DNA from: Eubacteriales bacterium
GTDB taxonomy: Bacteria; Bacillota; Clostridia; Lachnospirales; Lachnospiraceae
NCBI GenBank assembly: GCA_030524175.1
Contig: JAUNHC010000025.1
Span: 17,185-81,184, forward strand
DNA length: 64,000 bases
Direction: 5' to 3'
Shown here in pieces: positions 14,640 to 21,588 of this stretch (position 1 is the first letter of the stretch; the number at the start of each line of letters is the position of its first letter). The notes under the pieces are model-generated. The model had not been told where the DNA came from. It saw only the letters and a program-made list of their open reading frames with translations, and made no database searches. The translations under genes were made by a program, and so were the position numbers.

Positions 14640-15875
14640 TTATTTGATCTTAACGGATTTTACAGTGCTGAAGGCTCCGTATATACGGCTTCCGTCAGGC
14701 ATTTTTGTGAAGGCACGTACTTTATAGTAATAGGTACCTTTTTTCAGTTTTGTCTGATTGTAGCTTGTTGTTTTTCCGCTGGTTAGTGTTTTCAGGCGGG
14801 AATAGGTTCCGTTTTTTGATGTGCTTCTGTAAATCTGGTAGCCGTCTGCCTGGGATACCTTTTTCCAGGATATCTTAACCTTCTTATTTTTGTCTGCCTT
14901 TACAGCTGCATTCAATTTCGCCGGTGCAGTTTTGGCAGAGATTACTTTTGAGAAGGAACCGTACACTCTGTCCCTTTTCGAGTCATTGGTATAGGCACGG
15001 ATTTTAAAACGATAAGATTTCCCGTAGGACAGTGCTTTGCTTGTATAGCTTGTCACATTGCCATCCTGGACAGTTTTCATGCGGACATAGGCCTTTTTGC
15101 CGGTATCGTACTGATAAATTTGATATCCGTCTGCTTTGGGCACTTTTTTCCAGGAGAATACGATCCGATTGCTGCCGTTTTTAGTTTTTGATTTTAATGA
15201 AGTTGCAGCTGGTTTCGTCACAGGGGCAGGTGTGGGAGTGACCTCCGGGGCAGGTGTAACCTGTGGTGTTGGTGTTGGGTCCGGTGTGGGCTGGGGTGTA
15301 GGCTGCGGCGCCGGAGTTGTGCTGCCGCCGGGGTCAGGAGCCGGTGTAACCTCCGGCGTTGGTGTGGGAGTTGGTTTCTCCGAAGCATTACCTACAATTG
15401 CACCTGCGGCGTCTGTGATATCAATTACTGTCTTGCCATCAGCTTTATTGATCACTTCATAGTATACCGGCATTAAATTAGCCTGAAATTCTTCTTCGCC
15501 CTCCCATTGGATTGAAATTTTGCCCAGGGAAAGGGATGGTGTCTCACTGAAAATATTTTGTGTCCCTGCAGTATAAATATGCAGTATCCCGTCATTTTTG
15601 TTATAAACAGCTTCTTTCACAGCCGAGGGTAATGCCTGGTTGAATAAAAATGTTACGGCAAGTCCTTGGGAGTTTCCTGCTGTCACTTCAACTTTAATAT
15701 CGATTTGCATAGAGGTCACATCTGCTGACTCTGCAGGCTGATGTAACATGATGTCAGCTGACTTTTCTCCGCCGGTTATCATAATATCGCTGCCCTCTGC
15801 CAGGACGGCAGAGGGTGCAATAGTCAGTCCCAGCAGTAATAAAGCAGTAAATAAGATTTTATACCATTTCTTCAT
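14640..15875 (-). CDS. Secreted protein with possible cohesin-like domain, Pro/Thr linker and two fibronectin type III domains
   Basis: A 411-residue exported protein. A signal peptide (residues 1-26, ending AVLAEG) leads into a beta-rich domain (about 30-165). Its pattern VTSMQIDIKVEV ... VYNKNDGILHIYTAG ... LSLGKISI resembles the strands of cohesin or carbohydrate-binding modules; I rate cohesin-like as plausible only. Next is a Pro/Thr-rich linker (about 167-220), then two FN3 domains (about 222-315 and 318-411), each with the KKVPKADGYQIY / KKVSQADGYQIY signature, that share clear sequence repeats with each other. There is no LPXTG or C-terminal membrane segment, so it is released or held non-covalently. 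Its ATG is one base after the stop of the M60 gene, which carries a dockerin, implying translational coupling and a shared role. Confidence 0.85.
   Translation of the reverse strand: MKKWYKILFTALLLLGLTIAPSAVLAEGSDIMITGGEKSADIMLHQPAESADVTSMQIDIKVEVTAGNSQGLAVTFLFNQALPSAVKEAVYNKNDGILHIYTAGTQNIFSETPSLSLGKISIQWEGEEEFQANLMPVYYEVINKADGKTVIDITDAAGAIVGNASEKPTPTPTPEVTPAPDPGGSTTPAPQPTPQPTPDPTPTPQVTPAPEVTPTPAPVTKPAATSLKSKTKNGSNRIVFSWKKVPKADGYQIYQYDTGKKAYVRMKTVQDGNVTSYTSKALSYGKSYRFKIRAYTNDSKRDRVYGSFSKVISAKTAPAKLNAAVKADKNKKVKISWKKVSQADGYQIYRSTSKNGTYSRLKTLTSGKTTSYNQTKLKKGTYYYKVRAFTKMPDGSRIYGAFSTVKSVKIK
15220..15378. repeat. Low-complexity Pro/Thr linker repeat inside the FN3 protein gene
   Basis: Degenerate in-frame repeats encode PTP/TPAPEVTP-type units joining the N-terminal domain to the FN3 domains. 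Such linkers are extended and flexible, common in secreted clostridial enzymes, and prone to length change by slippage. Confidence 0.8.
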
Positions 15876-15876
15876 A

Positions 15877-18800
15877 TCAGTCCCCTTCTCCTGTATTAAA
15901 AGTGATTTCCGGCAGCTTTTCCGGAATTGTCAGATACAGGGTATCACTTACCAGGCGTTCTCCTTCGTTTGTGAGTGCATTGTCTACCCGGTACAATTCA
16001 GCACGTACCTGTTTCGGGATATTGAACTTGCCCTGTGAGTCGGGTAGTACGTAGTAAATCCAGTTTCCTTCCGAAACCTCACCAAGCTCTCCGTGCTCCG
16101 GTACTTCCGCCAGAATGATCTGTTCTGATTTAAGATTTCCTTCGCTGTCTGTACCGCCTACCACATTGCCATTTTCATCGTACAGTACAGCTACATTATA
16201 AGCCGGGTTGCCTTTGTATGTTCCGGTGAAGACAAGAGAACCTTCAGGTATTTTTTGTACCCCTGTTTTATCGCTTGCGTATACATAATCCTCTTTTAAA
16301 ATTCCGACAGGGGCATCCTTGCGGAATTCCAGGTTGTCGCCGGAGGGTCCGAGGATTTCAAGCTCTGAAACAGAACGTTCCCCGGAGTCCAGAATCTGTA
16401 GCTTTAAATATTGGGCATCAAAGGTGCACACAAAGGGATCTTTCTTTTCATTCTGGAAGTAAACTACAGCGGTGTCCGTGTTGTCAGTCTGGAATTGTCC
16501 TTCCTTTACAGTAAACCATTTTGAGCCGTCTTTGCTCAGCTGTATTCTGTAATTCTTAATAGGAGTTGTTCCATCTTTCCATTCATATAACAGAGCGCTC
16601 ACAGGCAATGTCTTATGGAAGTCAAGAATGATCTCACCGTTTCCGGAGCTGCTTCCCGTAAAGGTACTGTTGGAATCATTATCAATCACCTTGTCAATTG
16701 CCCGTTCCACCAGTGCGATATCAGGATTCTCTTCATCCGGTTCTTTAACCTTGTCTTCATCAGTTTTTAAGTTATTATTTGTGTTCACAGTCCAGCCGGC
16801 TTTTGCATATCTTCCGTCAGAGGCTATTTTAACAGGGGCCAGACGGTAAGAGGCTGACCGGTTCAAGAACTTATCCACTGCTGCCACCTCATAGGTAACG
16901 ACACGGTTTGCCTGGCTGATTGCTGTGTCTGTATAGGTGTTTTCTGTGGTAAACGCCGCAAGCTCTTTTATTTCAGTTCCTTTGGCATTTGTACAGCGGT
17001 AAATCTCATAGCCAAGCAGGGCGCTGCTGTTGTTTCCGCTCACCGAAAGACTCAATTCTGCTTTTGTGCCATGGGTTTCCACAGATGCATTGACGATATT
17101 CTTATCCTTAAAGGTACTTTCAGTTCCGTTTTCAATCTCATACACGCGGGCCTCGTCATTGACATAGTAGATTGCCCGTTCCTCAGCCTCAAACTGATTC
17201 ATGTATGCTTTTGTGGCTTCATCAGGTACCATTCCCCATCTCTGGAAAAACTCTGTCAAATCTTTTTCTGCTGCTGCTGCTGCCAGGCGCATAAGGTTCT
17301 GGTCTGTATCGCTCAGCGTCAGTTTTACTCCTCCTGGTGACGGAGCCTTGGATGTATCTCTGGCATAGCTGTCCACCCTTGCAAAGAATAGATTGTTGAA
17401 AATATCTTCGTAGGTATCATATGTTTTATAGTTGTAGCCTCTGTCATAAGCCAGGTGCAGCTGCCAGTACAATGCCAATTGTACAAAAACGTTATCGGCA
17501 CGTCCTACAGTCCCGGATGTTACTTTTTCATATACATCTTTATATTTGAATCTTACAGTGTCATTGGTGTCATGTGCCTGAGCCAGAACTGAGAAGTAAT
17601 TATTTGTTATCTCAGCAATTGCATAGGAACCCTGGTTGATCTCATGGCCGATTTCATGTGCGATCCCCCAGCCGAAGTATCTTCCGCTCTCATATCTTCC
17701 GTTGTTGCTTACAATCGGTGTTCCGCTCATCAGACCTGTCACTGAACCCCACTCGATTCCAACGTGATTTCCTGAGGCGTACATAAAGGCACCCGAGAAC
17801 ATTCTCATATAGCGGATATTCAAATGCCGTGCCGGAAGCTTGTTTTTTGCACCGGCGTCGCTTGCATTGGTCAGACCTTTATGCTGGTAAAATAACAGCA
17901 TCATATCATCCATGGCTTTTAATGCCTGGTTCAGCTTCTCTGCCTTCTCTTGTGTACTTCCGGAGCCAAGCCCTGCAAGCACCTGGCTGGCAGGTACGGA
18001 ATACATCATCTGGTCAAGCATGATGTCTGTTGTATTTAAGATACAGTTTTTTGCATCATAATCGTAATTTACTGATGATAAATCACCTTTCTGATGCAGT
18101 TCTTTGTGCTGCTTTTCAAGTTCAGGTACAAATGCCTCTAATTCCTGTACATATTTTAAGATAGCATCGGCTCGTTCACTTTCTGATAATCTGTACAAAT
18201 CCAGCCGTGGTATCTCTGCGCCGCCGTTTACCCTTACTCCGTAAGAAATCCCATTCTGACCGCCTGTGTACTGCACATAAAGCTGACCGCCCTGTTCCGC
18301 GGCGATACTCTGGATGGAAGGAATCGTCACTTCGTTACGGCCTACATTCAGAGTGGCAATTTCCTTTGCAAATGAGCTGGCTTCTGCATGATTTTGTGTC
18401 ACAAATAATTTCATTTCCGCAGAAGTGCCTGTTTTCTTAGTGCTGTGTCCCACAAAGACTGTGATGGTTTCCCCGGCCCGGGCGCTTACCCCTAAAGGCT
18501 GCCATGCATTTAAACCGGTAAATCCTAGATATCCGTCACTATTTCTGATTTCTCCGTGGATGCCTACTGTGGATTTCAGATTTCCTTCCAGAATGCCTTT
18601 TGCTGTATCCAATTCTTTCTGAAGCATTTCTTTTTCCGGGTGAAACTCACCGCTTACACTATCTCTGGTATCCAGTCTGTTCTGAAGTTCCTGGATTGTT
18701 TCTGCTGTCACTGTTTCCTTCAGCATGGTATGTAAATCGTCTTCATAGAGATTTATAATATCTGTTTCCAGACTGTCATAGTAGAAAAGATTCAAATCAG

Positions 18801-21255
18801 ACACTTGTATGCTTCTTATATAAGCATTAGGTTTTCCTATTCCAATATGGAACTTGCTTGCTTCCACAGGCTTATTGAATTTAACATAATAATATGCCTT
18901 GCCGTTGGTATCCAGTTTTCTGGAAATACTGGTATTCACGGATTTTACCGCATTATGCTCATCCCAGTAATCCAGCACTATCTTATTATAAGAGCCTTGA
19001 TTACTGCTGTCCACAAAAGAGAAGCCTCCAATCTGGTATACAGCATCCAGTGTTATGATCAGTCCCTTTCCGTCTATAGACGGGTAGTAGGCACCGTCAT
19101 CCCAGTCGTTCATATAATAGCTTGAGGACTGGTTATTGTCTGCGACACCGTAAGCTGAATTCTTTATCTCCGAAGCATCATCAAGAGGACTGTCAAGCAT
19201 TTTTCCTCTGCCATGTGTAATACTTTTAATATGTGCTGATAATTGTCCTTCACCCTTGCTTGTATTGATAAGCTTATATTCAGGCATTTTTACAGACGCC
19301 AGGCTTGTAGTGACTGCAACTGATTTCAGAGAAGGTTTGCCTTCTCCTTTCTCATTTACTCCTGTCACATATACGAAATATCTGGTGTTATCCTCCAGCT
19401 GGCTGACAGTATAGCTGTTCCCTGTAATATTCTCAATTTTATTATAGACAGAATCCGTGTCCTTACGGTAGTAAAGATTATAGCTGTCTGTATCCTTCAT
19501 ATTTTTCCAGGAAGCTGCCAGACTTTTGTATCCCCCTGTCACCTTGAGATTGTCAGGTGCATCTGGCACCTGGGTGGTTTTGGGTATTACCTCTTTAGGA
19601 GTGCAGTAGCCGCTTCTCCACTCGCCATTGACAGACTGTACTGAAATTTCATAGGTTTCATTGTTTTTCAGCTTATCATTTTTAAAAGATTTTACTGTCA
19701 TGGAAGTAGCAGAGGTTTTCTTGATTTCATCCTCATCTCCATGGAGGATTTGTACCTCGTATCCTGTGACGTTTGATTCCTGGTTCCATTCTAATGTAAA
19801 CTGCTGACTTCCGGCAGTTATACTTGTAATTACAGGAATATTCATCTGGGGTGCAGGAATCCGGTCCTGCATATTATTCACAAAGGTTACTTCAGATACT
19901 TCTGCAAGGGAAGTGTTAAGCTTTGTCCCTGTAATCTTGATCGTCACCTTCTTAACCGCGATCTGTCCATGAAAATCGATGACAATGGTGCCGTCTTTGT
20001 CCACAACTGCAGTGGGGCTTGACAGTTCAGAGGATTCCATCAGAAAGTATACAGCTTCCTCTGCTTTGGGTGAAAAGGGAACCTCAATGGGATATCCGGT
20101 ATCAGTACCATCATCCACTATTACGGTTATGGTTCCCGTTGTGACGGCATTATTGCTTCCAGCCGGGGACTCCAAGGTAATTCCCTGTATGGCTGGAGGG
20201 TTTTCCGCACTATTGGAGAAATCAAAGGCTACTTCCACAGGATTTTCTTGAGAAATCACCGCATTATTTGATGCTGCAAGCTGAACTGTACGCTCACTTT
20301 CGCTTAAGTTATTTCCGCCTAAGTTTTCAAGGTTTCCGCCTGTGATCTGTGTTCCTTCTGAAACATTCTTCTGTGCTGCCTGAACCGGAACAGAAGCCAA
20401 TACACTGGAAGTGTAGGAGGTTGTTTGCTCCAGGCCTTTTGCAAAATAGTGCAGATCCATAAGATCTACAGTTCCGTCAAGATTTAAATCCGCATTTATG
20501 TTACCGCTGCCGTTTTCAATTGTCTGCAGAATGATATCTTTATCCAGACTGTCTGTCATACCGTCGCCGTTTATATCCCCAATTAGCATAGCGCCGGGAT
20601 GCCCGGCAGCGTTATAGTCTACTCCTGCCAGCATTCCTGTATATACCTGAATGGAATAATCCATTGCCTCCACCGTAAGACTTTGCTTATATGGGGCAAA
20701 GCCCTGGCTATTGATCGTGAGTGTATAATCTCCTGCCTGCAGTCCGGGAAAATATGCAGATGTGGAAGGGATTCCCCCTTCACTTGCTGCAGGTATTGTT
20801 ATGGTCTGGTTCCCTGAGTTAGTCAATTCCACAGAAAAATTCCTGTCATTGGCCATGGTAACTGCTGAAAGCAGTTCAACCTTTAAGCTTCCGTTTCCCG
20901 TTCCGGAATTTTCTGCCAAATCAGTGAAGGCTTCTTCTGACTCTTCTGTTCCGTCCCCGAATAATGGTTCTTCTGCCATATCTTCACCGCTTTGGAACAG
21001 GGAGTCGTTTTCTCCTGTATCATTATTTTCAAAAATCTCCACATCATTCTGCGGATCCTCATTTTCAGCCGTCTGTCCGTCCTGGCTTTCCGCTCCCATA
21101 TCCTCCGTACTGCCGGGCTGCTCTTCTGTCCCAGGATTCTCATCATCATAAATCCCGGTTTCCTCAAAATCTGCGGCCATAATAATTCCGGGTGATGCAC
21201 AAATAGCCTGTACACTCAGGCATAAGGCAATAAATAGTGCTGCAGCTTTTTTCAT
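15877..21255 (-). CDS. Secreted dockerin-containing M60-type zinc metallopeptidase (multi-modular)
   Basis: A 1792-residue exported protein. Order of parts, with rough residues: signal peptide 1-27; acidic, probably disordered linker 28-115; small beta domain 120-215; dockerin 226-275 with two calcium loops (DINGDGMTDSLD and DLNLDGTVDLMD); beta domain to 460; two FN3 domains 468-652; F5/8-type or CBM32-like domain 665-830; M60/enhancin-like catalytic region about 900-1380 with HEIGH at 1200-1204 and E1215, fitting the family pattern HEXXH-X(8-28)-E; FN3 1385-1480; second CBM32-like domain 1510-1640; C-terminal beta region. M60 proteins cut mucin-type glycoproteins, and related clostridial enzymes also carry dockerin or cohesin modules. 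The ATG at 21255 (MKKAAALF) has AGGAGG nine bases upstream and starts a clear signal peptide; an upstream in-frame ATG (21324) lies inside the terminator. Expression is governed by the c-di-GMP riboswitch. Confidence 0.9.
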   Translation of the reverse strand: MKKAAALFIALCLSVQAICASPGIIMAADFEETGIYDDENPGTEEQPGSTEDMGAESQDGQTAENEDPQNDVEIFENNDTGENDSLFQSGEDMAEEPLFGDGTEESEEAFTDLAENSGTGNGSLKVELLSAVTMANDRNFSVELTNSGNQTITIPAASEGGIPSTSAYFPGLQAGDYTLTINSQGFAPYKQSLTVEAMDYSIQVYTGMLAGVDYNAAGHPGAMLIGDINGDGMTDSLDKDIILQTIENGSGNINADLNLDGTVDLMDLHYFAKGLEQTTSYTSSVLASVPVQAAQKNVSEGTQITGGNLENLGGNNLSESERTVQLAASNNAVISQENPVEVAFDFSNSAENPPAIQGITLESPAGSNNAVTTGTITVIVDDGTDTGYPIEVPFSPKAEEAVYFLMESSELSSPTAVVDKDGTIVIDFHGQIAVKKVTIKITGTKLNTSLAEVSEVTFVNNMQDRIPAPQMNIPVITSITAGSQQFTLEWNQESNVTGYEVQILHGDEDEIKKTSATSMTVKSFKNDKLKNNETYEISVQSVNGEWRSGYCTPKEVIPKTTQVPDAPDNLKVTGGYKSLAASWKNMKDTDSYNLYYRKDTDSVYNKIENITGNSYTVSQLEDNTRYFVYVTGVNEKGEGKPSLKSVAVTTSLASVKMPEYKLINTSKGEGQLSAHIKSITHGRGKMLDSPLDDASEIKNSAYGVADNNQSSSYYMNDWDDGAYYPSIDGKGLIITLDAVYQIGGFSFVDSSNQGSYNKIVLDYWDEHNAVKSVNTSISRKLDTNGKAYYYVKFNKPVEASKFHIGIGKPNAYIRSIQVSDLNLFYYDSLETDIINLYEDDLHTMLKETVTAETIQELQNRLDTRDSVSGEFHPEKEMLQKELDTAKGILEGNLKSTVGIHGEIRNSDGYLGFTGLNAWQPLGVSARAGETITVFVGHSTKKTGTSAEMKLFVTQNHAEASSFAKEIATLNVGRNEVTIPSIQSIAAEQGGQLYVQYTGGQNGISYGVRVNGGAEIPRLDLYRLSESERADAILKYVQELEAFVPELEKQHKELHQKGDLSSVNYDYDAKNCILNTTDIMLDQMMYSVPASQVLAGLGSGSTQEKAEKLNQALKAMDDMMLLFYQHKGLTNASDAGAKNKLPARHLNIRYMRMFSGAFMYASGNHVGIEWGSVTGLMSGTPIVSNNGRYESGRYFGWGIAHEIGHEINQGSYAIAEITNNYFSVLAQAHDTNDTVRFKYKDVYEKVTSGTVGRADNVFVQLALYWQLHLAYDRGYNYKTYDTYEDIFNNLFFARVDSYARDTSKAPSPGGVKLTLSDTDQNLMRLAAAAAEKDLTEFFQRWGMVPDEATKAYMNQFEAEERAIYYVNDEARVYEIENGTESTFKDKNIVNASVETHGTKAELSLSVSGNNSSALLGYEIYRCTNAKGTEIKELAAFTTENTYTDTAISQANRVVTYEVAAVDKFLNRSASYRLAPVKIASDGRYAKAGWTVNTNNNLKTDEDKVKEPDEENPDIALVERAIDKVIDNDSNSTFTGSSSGNGEIILDFHKTLPVSALLYEWKDGTTPIKNYRIQLSKDGSKWFTVKEGQFQTDNTDTAVVYFQNEKKDPFVCTFDAQYLKLQILDSGERSVSELEILGPSGDNLEFRKDAPVGILKEDYVYASDKTGVQKIPEGSLVFTGTYKGNPAYNVAVLYDENGNVVGGTDSEGNLKSEQIILAEVPEHGELGEVSEGNWIYYVLPDSQGKFNIPKQVRAELYRVDNALTNEGERLVSDTLYLTIPEKLPEITFNTGEGD

Positions 21256-21320
21256 CCCTTCATTCCTCCTATACTCCCTCTGTTTATTTCTCTTATGGAA
21301 ATTTTGACACAAAATTTTGC

Positions 21321-21361
21321 ACAAAAAAATCGTTTATATTTTTGGTAAAATATAAACGATT
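21321..21361 (-). terminator. Riboswitch-linked intrinsic terminator in the metallopeptidase leader
   Basis: A perfect 15-bp stem (21328-21342 with 21347-21361, loop of 4) is followed on the minus strand by TTTTTTTGT. It lies between the c-di-GMP aptamer and the metallopeptidase start codon, where a transcription-terminating expression platform is expected. The alternative antiterminator pairing was not worked out. Confidence 0.85.
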
Positions 21362-21432
21362 GCCGGCAAAACGTAAAACCTCACAACTGTCATAAAAACA
21401 ACGCTGACAGAACACAATGATCATGTGTATTT

Positions 21433-21545
21433 GTTACATTTCACTGAGAAAACTCTTGCGGCAACCGGCTGTCCTAGCTTCTGAAGAAGCCTTAGACCCT
21501 TGGCTTTGCGTCACCGTCTTTCGACAGTTTTGCTATTTCTGTAAC
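21433..21545 (-). ncRNA. Cyclic di-GMP-I (GEMM-I) riboswitch aptamer
   Basis: The minus strand shows the GEMM-I core in order: AGCAAAAC, a CTGTC-GAAA-GACGG hairpin with the GAAA tetraloop (21519-21522), GACGCAAAGCC, GGGTCTAAG, a short hairpin GCTTCT/AGAAGC, then AGCCGGTTGCCGC (21457-21469). GTTAC/GTAAC at the ends could close the aptamer; an alternative 8-bp closing helix (ACTGAGAA 21555-21562 with TTCTCAGT 21443-21450) would overlap the proposed -10 box. The class binds c-di-GMP. The downstream gene is the dockerin-M60 peptidase. Whether binding turns expression on or off depends on the pairing with the terminator at 21321-21361. Confidence 0.92.
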
Positions 21546-21559
21546 TTCCATATATTCTC

Positions 21560-21588
21560 AGTTTACTAATCTAAACCCTGGCTGTCAA
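21560..21588 (-). promoter_or_regulatory. Promoter of the riboswitch/metallopeptidase operon
   Basis: Minus strand TTGACA (21583-21588), 17-base spacer, TAAACT (21560-21565). The -35 box overlaps the stop codon of the upstream MATE gene. Transcription would start near 21553, just before the aptamer. Confidence 0.75.

Follow-up and report, generated by a model that had tools for sequence, protein, structure and literature searches.

On the minus strand of the window, the 64-kb stretch of DNA that was analysed as a whole, a leader with a c-di-GMP-I riboswitch aptamer precedes two genes, which code for an M60-type metallopeptidase and for a smaller partner protein (Table 1). Riboswitches for c-di-GMP were reportedly first described by Sudarsan in 2008.

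Table 1. Positions of the leader elements, genes and protein domains in the window.
Feature	Position	Strand	Basis and details
Promoter-like TTGACA-17-TAAACT	21560..21588	-	10/12 consensus matches
c-di-GMP-I (GEMM-I) riboswitch aptamer	21457..21544	-	RF01051, 78.8 bits, E 8e-14
Antiterminator strand 1 (CGGUUGCCG), 3′ part of the aptamer	21459..21467	-	9 continuous pairs with 21357-21365
Antiterminator strand 2 (CGGCAAUCG)	21357..21365	-	shares 5 nt with the start of the terminator stem
Intrinsic terminator	21323..21361	-	hairpin of 15 bp at 21361-21328, then a U tract at 21327-21323; -12.7 kcal/mol
Shine-Dalgarno-like AGGAGG	21265..21270	-	9 nt ahead of the ATG; sequence read directly
M60 (O-glycopeptidase-type) metallopeptidase gene, 1792 aa	15877..21255	-	ATG at 21255; signal peptide assigned by eye
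Dockerin type I module, residues 226-268	20452..20580	-	PF00404 and two calcium-loop motifs
M60 catalytic domain, residues 1112-1341	17233..17922	-	PF13402, E 4.3e-13; HEIGHE
Partner gene, 411 aa	14640..15875	-	ATG 1 nt past the M60 stop
Cohesin-like domain	15369..15797	-	predicted fold

The aptamer matches RF01051 over its full length (model positions 1-87 of 87, gathering score 35) and displays the conserved sequence and structure of this family; no other Rfam family reaches its own gathering score anywhere in the window. The score rules out a chance match or artefact. Downstream of the aptamer, the two arms of the terminator hairpin (21361-21347 and 21342-21328, 15 nt each) are 100% complementary in an inverted-repeat search and are followed by TTTTTG. 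This is the one terminator seen in the window leader. A consensus terminator scanner lists none at this leader, which we attribute to its demand for three G-C pairs. The aptamer, the strong terminator hairpin and their positions had been proposed from the letters of the DNA, together with a covariance search as the way to check them, and both elements are confirmed by the RF01051 match on the minus strand and by the perfect 15-bp hairpin. The promoter of the original prediction fared less clearly: the hexamers are present, but a scan of this kind gives 1.3 matches by chance in the region. The -35 hexamer overlaps the stop codon of the upstream MATE gene, and the leader of Blautia schinkii carries identical hexamers at identical spacing.

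The 1792-residue protein is composed of a dockerin, two fn3 domains, a Peptidase_M60 domain and an F5/8 type C domain. Its catalytic domain scores 49.9 bits against a curated cut-off of 25.8 and contains the motif HEIGHE together with the later glutamate. The closest solved relatives are 5kdn (83 bits), which we take to be ZmpB, 5kdj, and the ZmpC and ZmpA glycopeptidases 6xsz and 6xsx, so that the nearest structures (5kdn, 6xsz, 6xsx) belong to the O-glycopeptidases ZmpA, ZmpB and ZmpC of C. perfringens. The putative substrate is an O-glycosylated host protein. In contrast to the C. perfringens enzymes, for which we have seen no switch described, the M60 protein of the window carries an N-terminal dockerin and is followed by a cohesin-like gene. 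The dockerin is a borderline type I module: PF00404 stays below its cut-off of 22.9 in the protein scan (20.3 bits) and passes it in the genome search (23.5 bits), and two calcium-loop repeats are found with the customary motif pattern. Residues 220-275 match the solved chain 5lxv_B (E 3e-4), and no other PF00404 match was found in the genome. A secreted, dockerin-bearing M60 peptidase of 1792 residues, as originally predicted, is thus upheld by the reading frame, the Peptidase_M60 match (E 4e-13), a signal peptide assigned by eye, the genome-search score and the two loop motifs.

The 411-residue partner consists of a signal peptide (assigned by eye), a cohesin-like domain, a P/T linker and two fn3 domains. 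A hydrophobic C-terminal stretch is present in 22 of 24 partners, the exceptions being those of the window and of B. schinkii. The nine-strand jelly-roll of cohesins is seen in the predicted models of the domain. For the window model the best cohesin gives a Z of 9.2, with an unrelated protease domain within 1 of it (8.3), and structure comparison of the cohesin-like models yields a TM of about 0.5-0.6 with cohesins and of 0.3-0.4 with collagen-binding adhesin domains. At the sequence level, Pfam cohesin (PF00963) has 0 matches in the genome at its curated cut-off and appears weakly in just 3 of 23 members of the partner set (best E 0.014). Proof of cohesin identity by sequence failed for want of a significant match, and the cohesin claim therefore rests on predicted folds.

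The position of the partner gene is recurrent. In all 23 named relatives, the gene after the M60 gene encodes a homologue of the partner domain. A profile built from 22 of these relatives finds a single match in the window genome, the gene directly after the M60 gene, and at held-out loci it matches next to the M60 gene in genomes G222 and G014. In G046 (L065 4334-10651) it matches inside the M60 reading frame (E 1e-8), as if both were fused. The profile finds nothing at the dockerin-type loci of G736, G853 and G772. Profile-profile comparison (hhalign) of the next genes gives a probability of 88.6 for G772 and of 6.4 for G853, and the G772 gene (L137 8243-10135) carries three CWB2 cell-wall stretches behind a domain resembling the cohesin-like one. 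The gene pair is also present in Eggerthella and Gordonibacter (L072, L084; Actinomycetota), whose M60 domains form a fully supported pair within the Lachnospiraceae portion of the M60 tree. Transfer across phyla is possible.

An ordinary β-sandwich of the adhesin or Ig-like kind, which does not bind a dockerin and would leave the peptidase alone to matter, is a rather unlikely reading of the downstream domain. It would account for the lack of a significant cohesin match, for a TM of only about 0.5-0.6, for the matches to adhesin domains and for the lack of a dockerin loop motif in four (L076, L078, L084, L088) of the 24 M60 proteins that have a partner gene of this kind. We favour a cohesin-like receptor, on which the dockerin would dock; the downstream protein thus probably holds the peptidase at the surface.

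An antiterminator of -15.6 kcal/mol (p = 0.007, 300 shuffles) can form in the leader between the aptamer's 3′ part and the foot of the terminator. Folding of the free nascent RNA at 188-205 nt gives this duplex a probability of 0.91-0.92, which drops to 0 when the aptamer is forced, and the minimum-energy structures with forced aptamer contain no alternative antiterminator. At 225 nt, the basal pairs of the terminator reach 0.90 in the free RNA and 0.92 with the aptamer. The terminator dominates both ways, and any ligand effect must therefore be kinetic. B. schinkii retains eight of the nine antiterminator pairs, one of them with G-C replaced by A-U through changes in both strands; drawn from two sequences, this paired change is an indication only. 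The original prediction had named a terminator hairpin in the leader and proposed folding with and without ligand constraints as a check. A terminator-type leader is supported by the hairpin and the competing antiterminator, which in computation couple the expression platform to the aptamer.

For comparison, 12 c-di-GMP-I switches located before M60 genes were collected, two from the window genome and others including those of B. schinkii (L066) and Eisenbergiella tayi (L086); G462 was omitted because it is identical to B. schinkii. The leaders are not independent and form the kin groups window/B. schinkii, G641a/G641b/G754 and G736/G853. A filter for a hairpin with U tract between aptamer and coding sequence was passed by 10 of the 12, while in G772 and G771 a weaker and a nested hairpin, respectively, were placed by eye. 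When the unliganded RNA is cut before the 3′ strand of the terminator, pairing of its 5′ strand to the aptamer's 3′ part is predicted in 10 of 12 leaders, at mean probabilities of 0.20-0.72; among 100 shuffled platforms, between 1 and 7 were as high. In G771 the pairing probability is 0.04 (4/100 shuffles as high) and in G772 it is 0.00 (91/100). Measured by duplex energy, only three leaders fall below p = 0.05 for the 5′ strand (window 0.007, G736 0.013, G853 0.027), and two do so against the 3′ strand (G754 and G771, 0.040 each). Typing of the M60 proteins of 11 leaders, G754 being left out, assigns the window, B. schinkii, G222, G736, G853 and G772 to an fn3/dockerin type; of these six, G222 and G772 alone have a dockerin above the Pfam cut-off in the protein scan. 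The E. tayi protein shares this build with one loop motif and gives no Pfam dockerin at E 0.01. An NPCBM type with no dockerin match comprises the C55 switch of the window genome, G641a, G641b and G771.

These leaders point to an OFF switch, whereas no direction of control had been named in the original prediction. Since the antiterminator is made of the aptamer's own 3′ part, the ligand should exclude it. OFF logic is also the general rule for the class I switches of C. difficile, where zmpI falls 62-fold with c-di-GMP (PMC6200980, excerpt), and this match supports the OFF model. An ON switch, in which c-di-GMP unfolds the terminator and the operon is made at high c-di-GMP in the attached state, is unlikely. 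There are precedents, in that the class I switch Cdi-1-1 of C. difficile rises with c-di-GMP (PMC6200980, excerpt) and terminator T1 of the B. thuringiensis switch Bc1 unfolds with ligand (PMC11218506, excerpt), and the free full-length RNA of the window favours the terminator. However, 10 of the 12 leaders have an antiterminator built on the 3′ part of the aptamer, and in the window leader no other one emerges in the minimum-energy structures with the aptamer forced. That a real aptamer has lost control of its gene by decay or override, as reported for Bc1, which binds c-di-GMP while expression is unchanged (PMC11218506, excerpt), is very unlikely: the leaders of C55, E. tayi, G641 (both) and G754 do have two successive hairpins, but the window aptamer is full length at 78.8 bits, B. 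schinkii keeps antiterminator and terminator with one paired change, and decay would fit poorly with a recurrence in five families.

To assess this recurrence, an M60 place of the class sample was counted as switched if an RF01051 match lies on the same strand within 6 kb upstream of the M60 domain. In this sample of 391 genomes, M60 exceeds its cut-off at 32 places, and the 27 genomes that carry them were scanned for RF01051. Nine of the 32 places have a switch against 0.05 expected, and seven of 30 against 0.04 if the window genome is set aside. The switched places lie in seven genomes (the window genome G000, G641, G736, G754, G771, G772 and G853) of the families f1, f64, f77, f81 and f87, and the unswitched ones may include places too near a contig end for a leader. 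In the family sample (397 genomes; 43 M60 places in 41 genomes, one of them, G340:C35, under cut-off), three places are switched, two in the window genome and one in G222; the other 40 may likewise include places too near a contig end. Among 64 genomes of the genus sample, three of five M60 places, spread over four genomes, carry the switch: the two of the window genome and G462, the DNA of which is the same as B. schinkii L066 (7748/7748 nt compared). In the named relatives, where at least 411 nt of upstream DNA was examined at all 23 M60 loci, two are switched and 21 are not. Within the family of the window genome the link is thus uncommon; it is more frequent in other families of the class.

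In a tree of 93 M60 domains, 12 with a switch, the switch label needs eight changes, of which at least five are forced by well-supported branches; shuffled labels average 11.4, and 3 of 500 shuffles were as low. A single origin of the link was rejected on these changes. The label is also clustered, so that inheritance explains part of its distribution and fresh gain or loss the rest. The tree was built quickly; its long branches may mislead, and gains are pooled with losses. It omits the duplicates L098 (equal to G222), L094 (equal to C55) and G462 (identical to B. schinkii L066), L108 (a false motif hit), L140 and L141 (motif not found), G591, the second place in G729 and, as under cut-off, G340:C35 and seven class hits. 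The original prediction did not mention the recurrence across families, the second switch-M60 pair of the genome or the cohesin-like gene that follows 1 nt after the M60 stop.

The window genome harbors five c-di-GMP-I switches, two of them ahead of M60 genes. The second of these (G000:C55, L062 5536-991; 64.1 bits) precedes an NPCBM-type M60 gene of 1426 residues, counted from its ATG. A further switch (G000:C29, L063 2755-1786) is located before a gene for an EAL phosphodiesterase, where feedback on c-di-GMP is possible. The switch at G000:C23 (L061 2471-3977) precedes a 232-residue protein and a second, cut-off protein, neither with a Pfam match, and the DNA downstream of the switch at G000:C87 is a masked stretch. 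In other genomes, two consecutive M60 genes each have their own, very similar c-di-GMP-I leader (G641:C33, L133), and two or three aptamers stand in tandem at G322:C26, G323:C86/C41/C21, G498:C29 and G585:C40.

PPEP-1, the product of C. difficile zmpI (CD2830), is specific for Pro-Pro sites. Its leader is the nearest regulatory parallel, which the original prediction had aptly drawn: Cdi-1-12 is a class I switch with OFF logic before a secreted zinc metallopeptidase (PMC6200980, excerpt). The enzymes differ: the targets of ZmpI/PPEP-1 are sortase-anchored proteins of the same cell (PMC6200980 and PMC4591827, excerpts), whereas the window enzyme is of the mucin O-glycopeptidase-type M60 kind with F5/8, dockerin and fn3 domains and a cohesin-like partner. 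Dockerin enzymes held on cohesins break down mucin in the mucinolysome of Limousia; its scaffoldins, like those of cellulosomes, carry tandem cohesins (PMC12997984, excerpt), in contrast to the single dockerin enzyme and single cohesin-like protein of one operon found here. A terminator-type 5′-UTR was proposed as a riboswitch before the dockerin enzymes of the papyrosolvens xyl-doc cluster, which are hemicellulases with an oligosaccharide as proposed signal (PMC5815224, excerpt). In the window a c-di-GMP aptamer precedes a peptidase, and as its class is known, so would be the signal, unlike in the xyl-doc proposal. Like the window leader, Bc1 has a long, terminator-bearing platform behind a class I aptamer; it differs in having two terminators, as compared with one here, and in an expression unmoved by c-di-GMP (PMC11218506, excerpt).

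Already known are hence the c-di-GMP-I aptamer class, the M60 family, the cohesin and dockerin modules and, from the excerpt of PMC5815224, the proposal of a riboswitch before dockerin enzymes. A 2025 review of cellulosomes treats riboswitch-linked dockerins as a design concept (PMC12484212, excerpt). In an M60 survey, the domain table lists Dockerin type 1 with 2 and 2, and the word 'riboswitch' does not occur (PMC3267712, excerpt); the excerpt of PMC11651100 presents no link to M60. In the accessible parts of the open-licence literature, no paper was found to place M60 peptidases or a dockerin/cohesin pair under the control of c-di-GMP.

Taken together, an OFF-switched operon of a dockerin-bearing M60 peptidase and a cohesin-like surface anchor is considered reasonably probable. 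In the proposed mechanism, the c-di-GMP-I riboswitch would control both genes by premature termination of transcription. Without ligand, the 3′ part of the aptamer would pair with the terminator foot and the operon would be read; upon binding of c-di-GMP the aptamer would retain its 3′ strand, so that the terminator could form and peptidase and anchor would be turned off. At low c-di-GMP, in free-living cells, the peptidase would be exported and held by the cohesin-like protein, and at high c-di-GMP, in attached cells, this peptidase of mucin-type glycoproteins would be shut off.

The chances are finely balanced for a wider statement: that in Clostridia c-di-GMP-I switches have repeatedly come to stand before M60 genes, mostly as OFF switches, and that a dockerin branch co-produces its cohesin-like receptor, forming a riboswitch-gated cellulosome of a single enzyme, by which one second messenger would determine if a gut commensal exposes an enzyme that cuts mucin. 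According to the model, single dockerin-cohesin pairs at the cell surface would be widespread and missed by the Pfam cohesin model. Occurrence of the link in several separate lineages would suggest selection for a connection between c-di-GMP and attack on mucin. If the model is true, c-di-GMP, the signal for the motile or attached state, would be tied directly to how commensal-type Clostridia attack mucin-type glycoproteins of the host.
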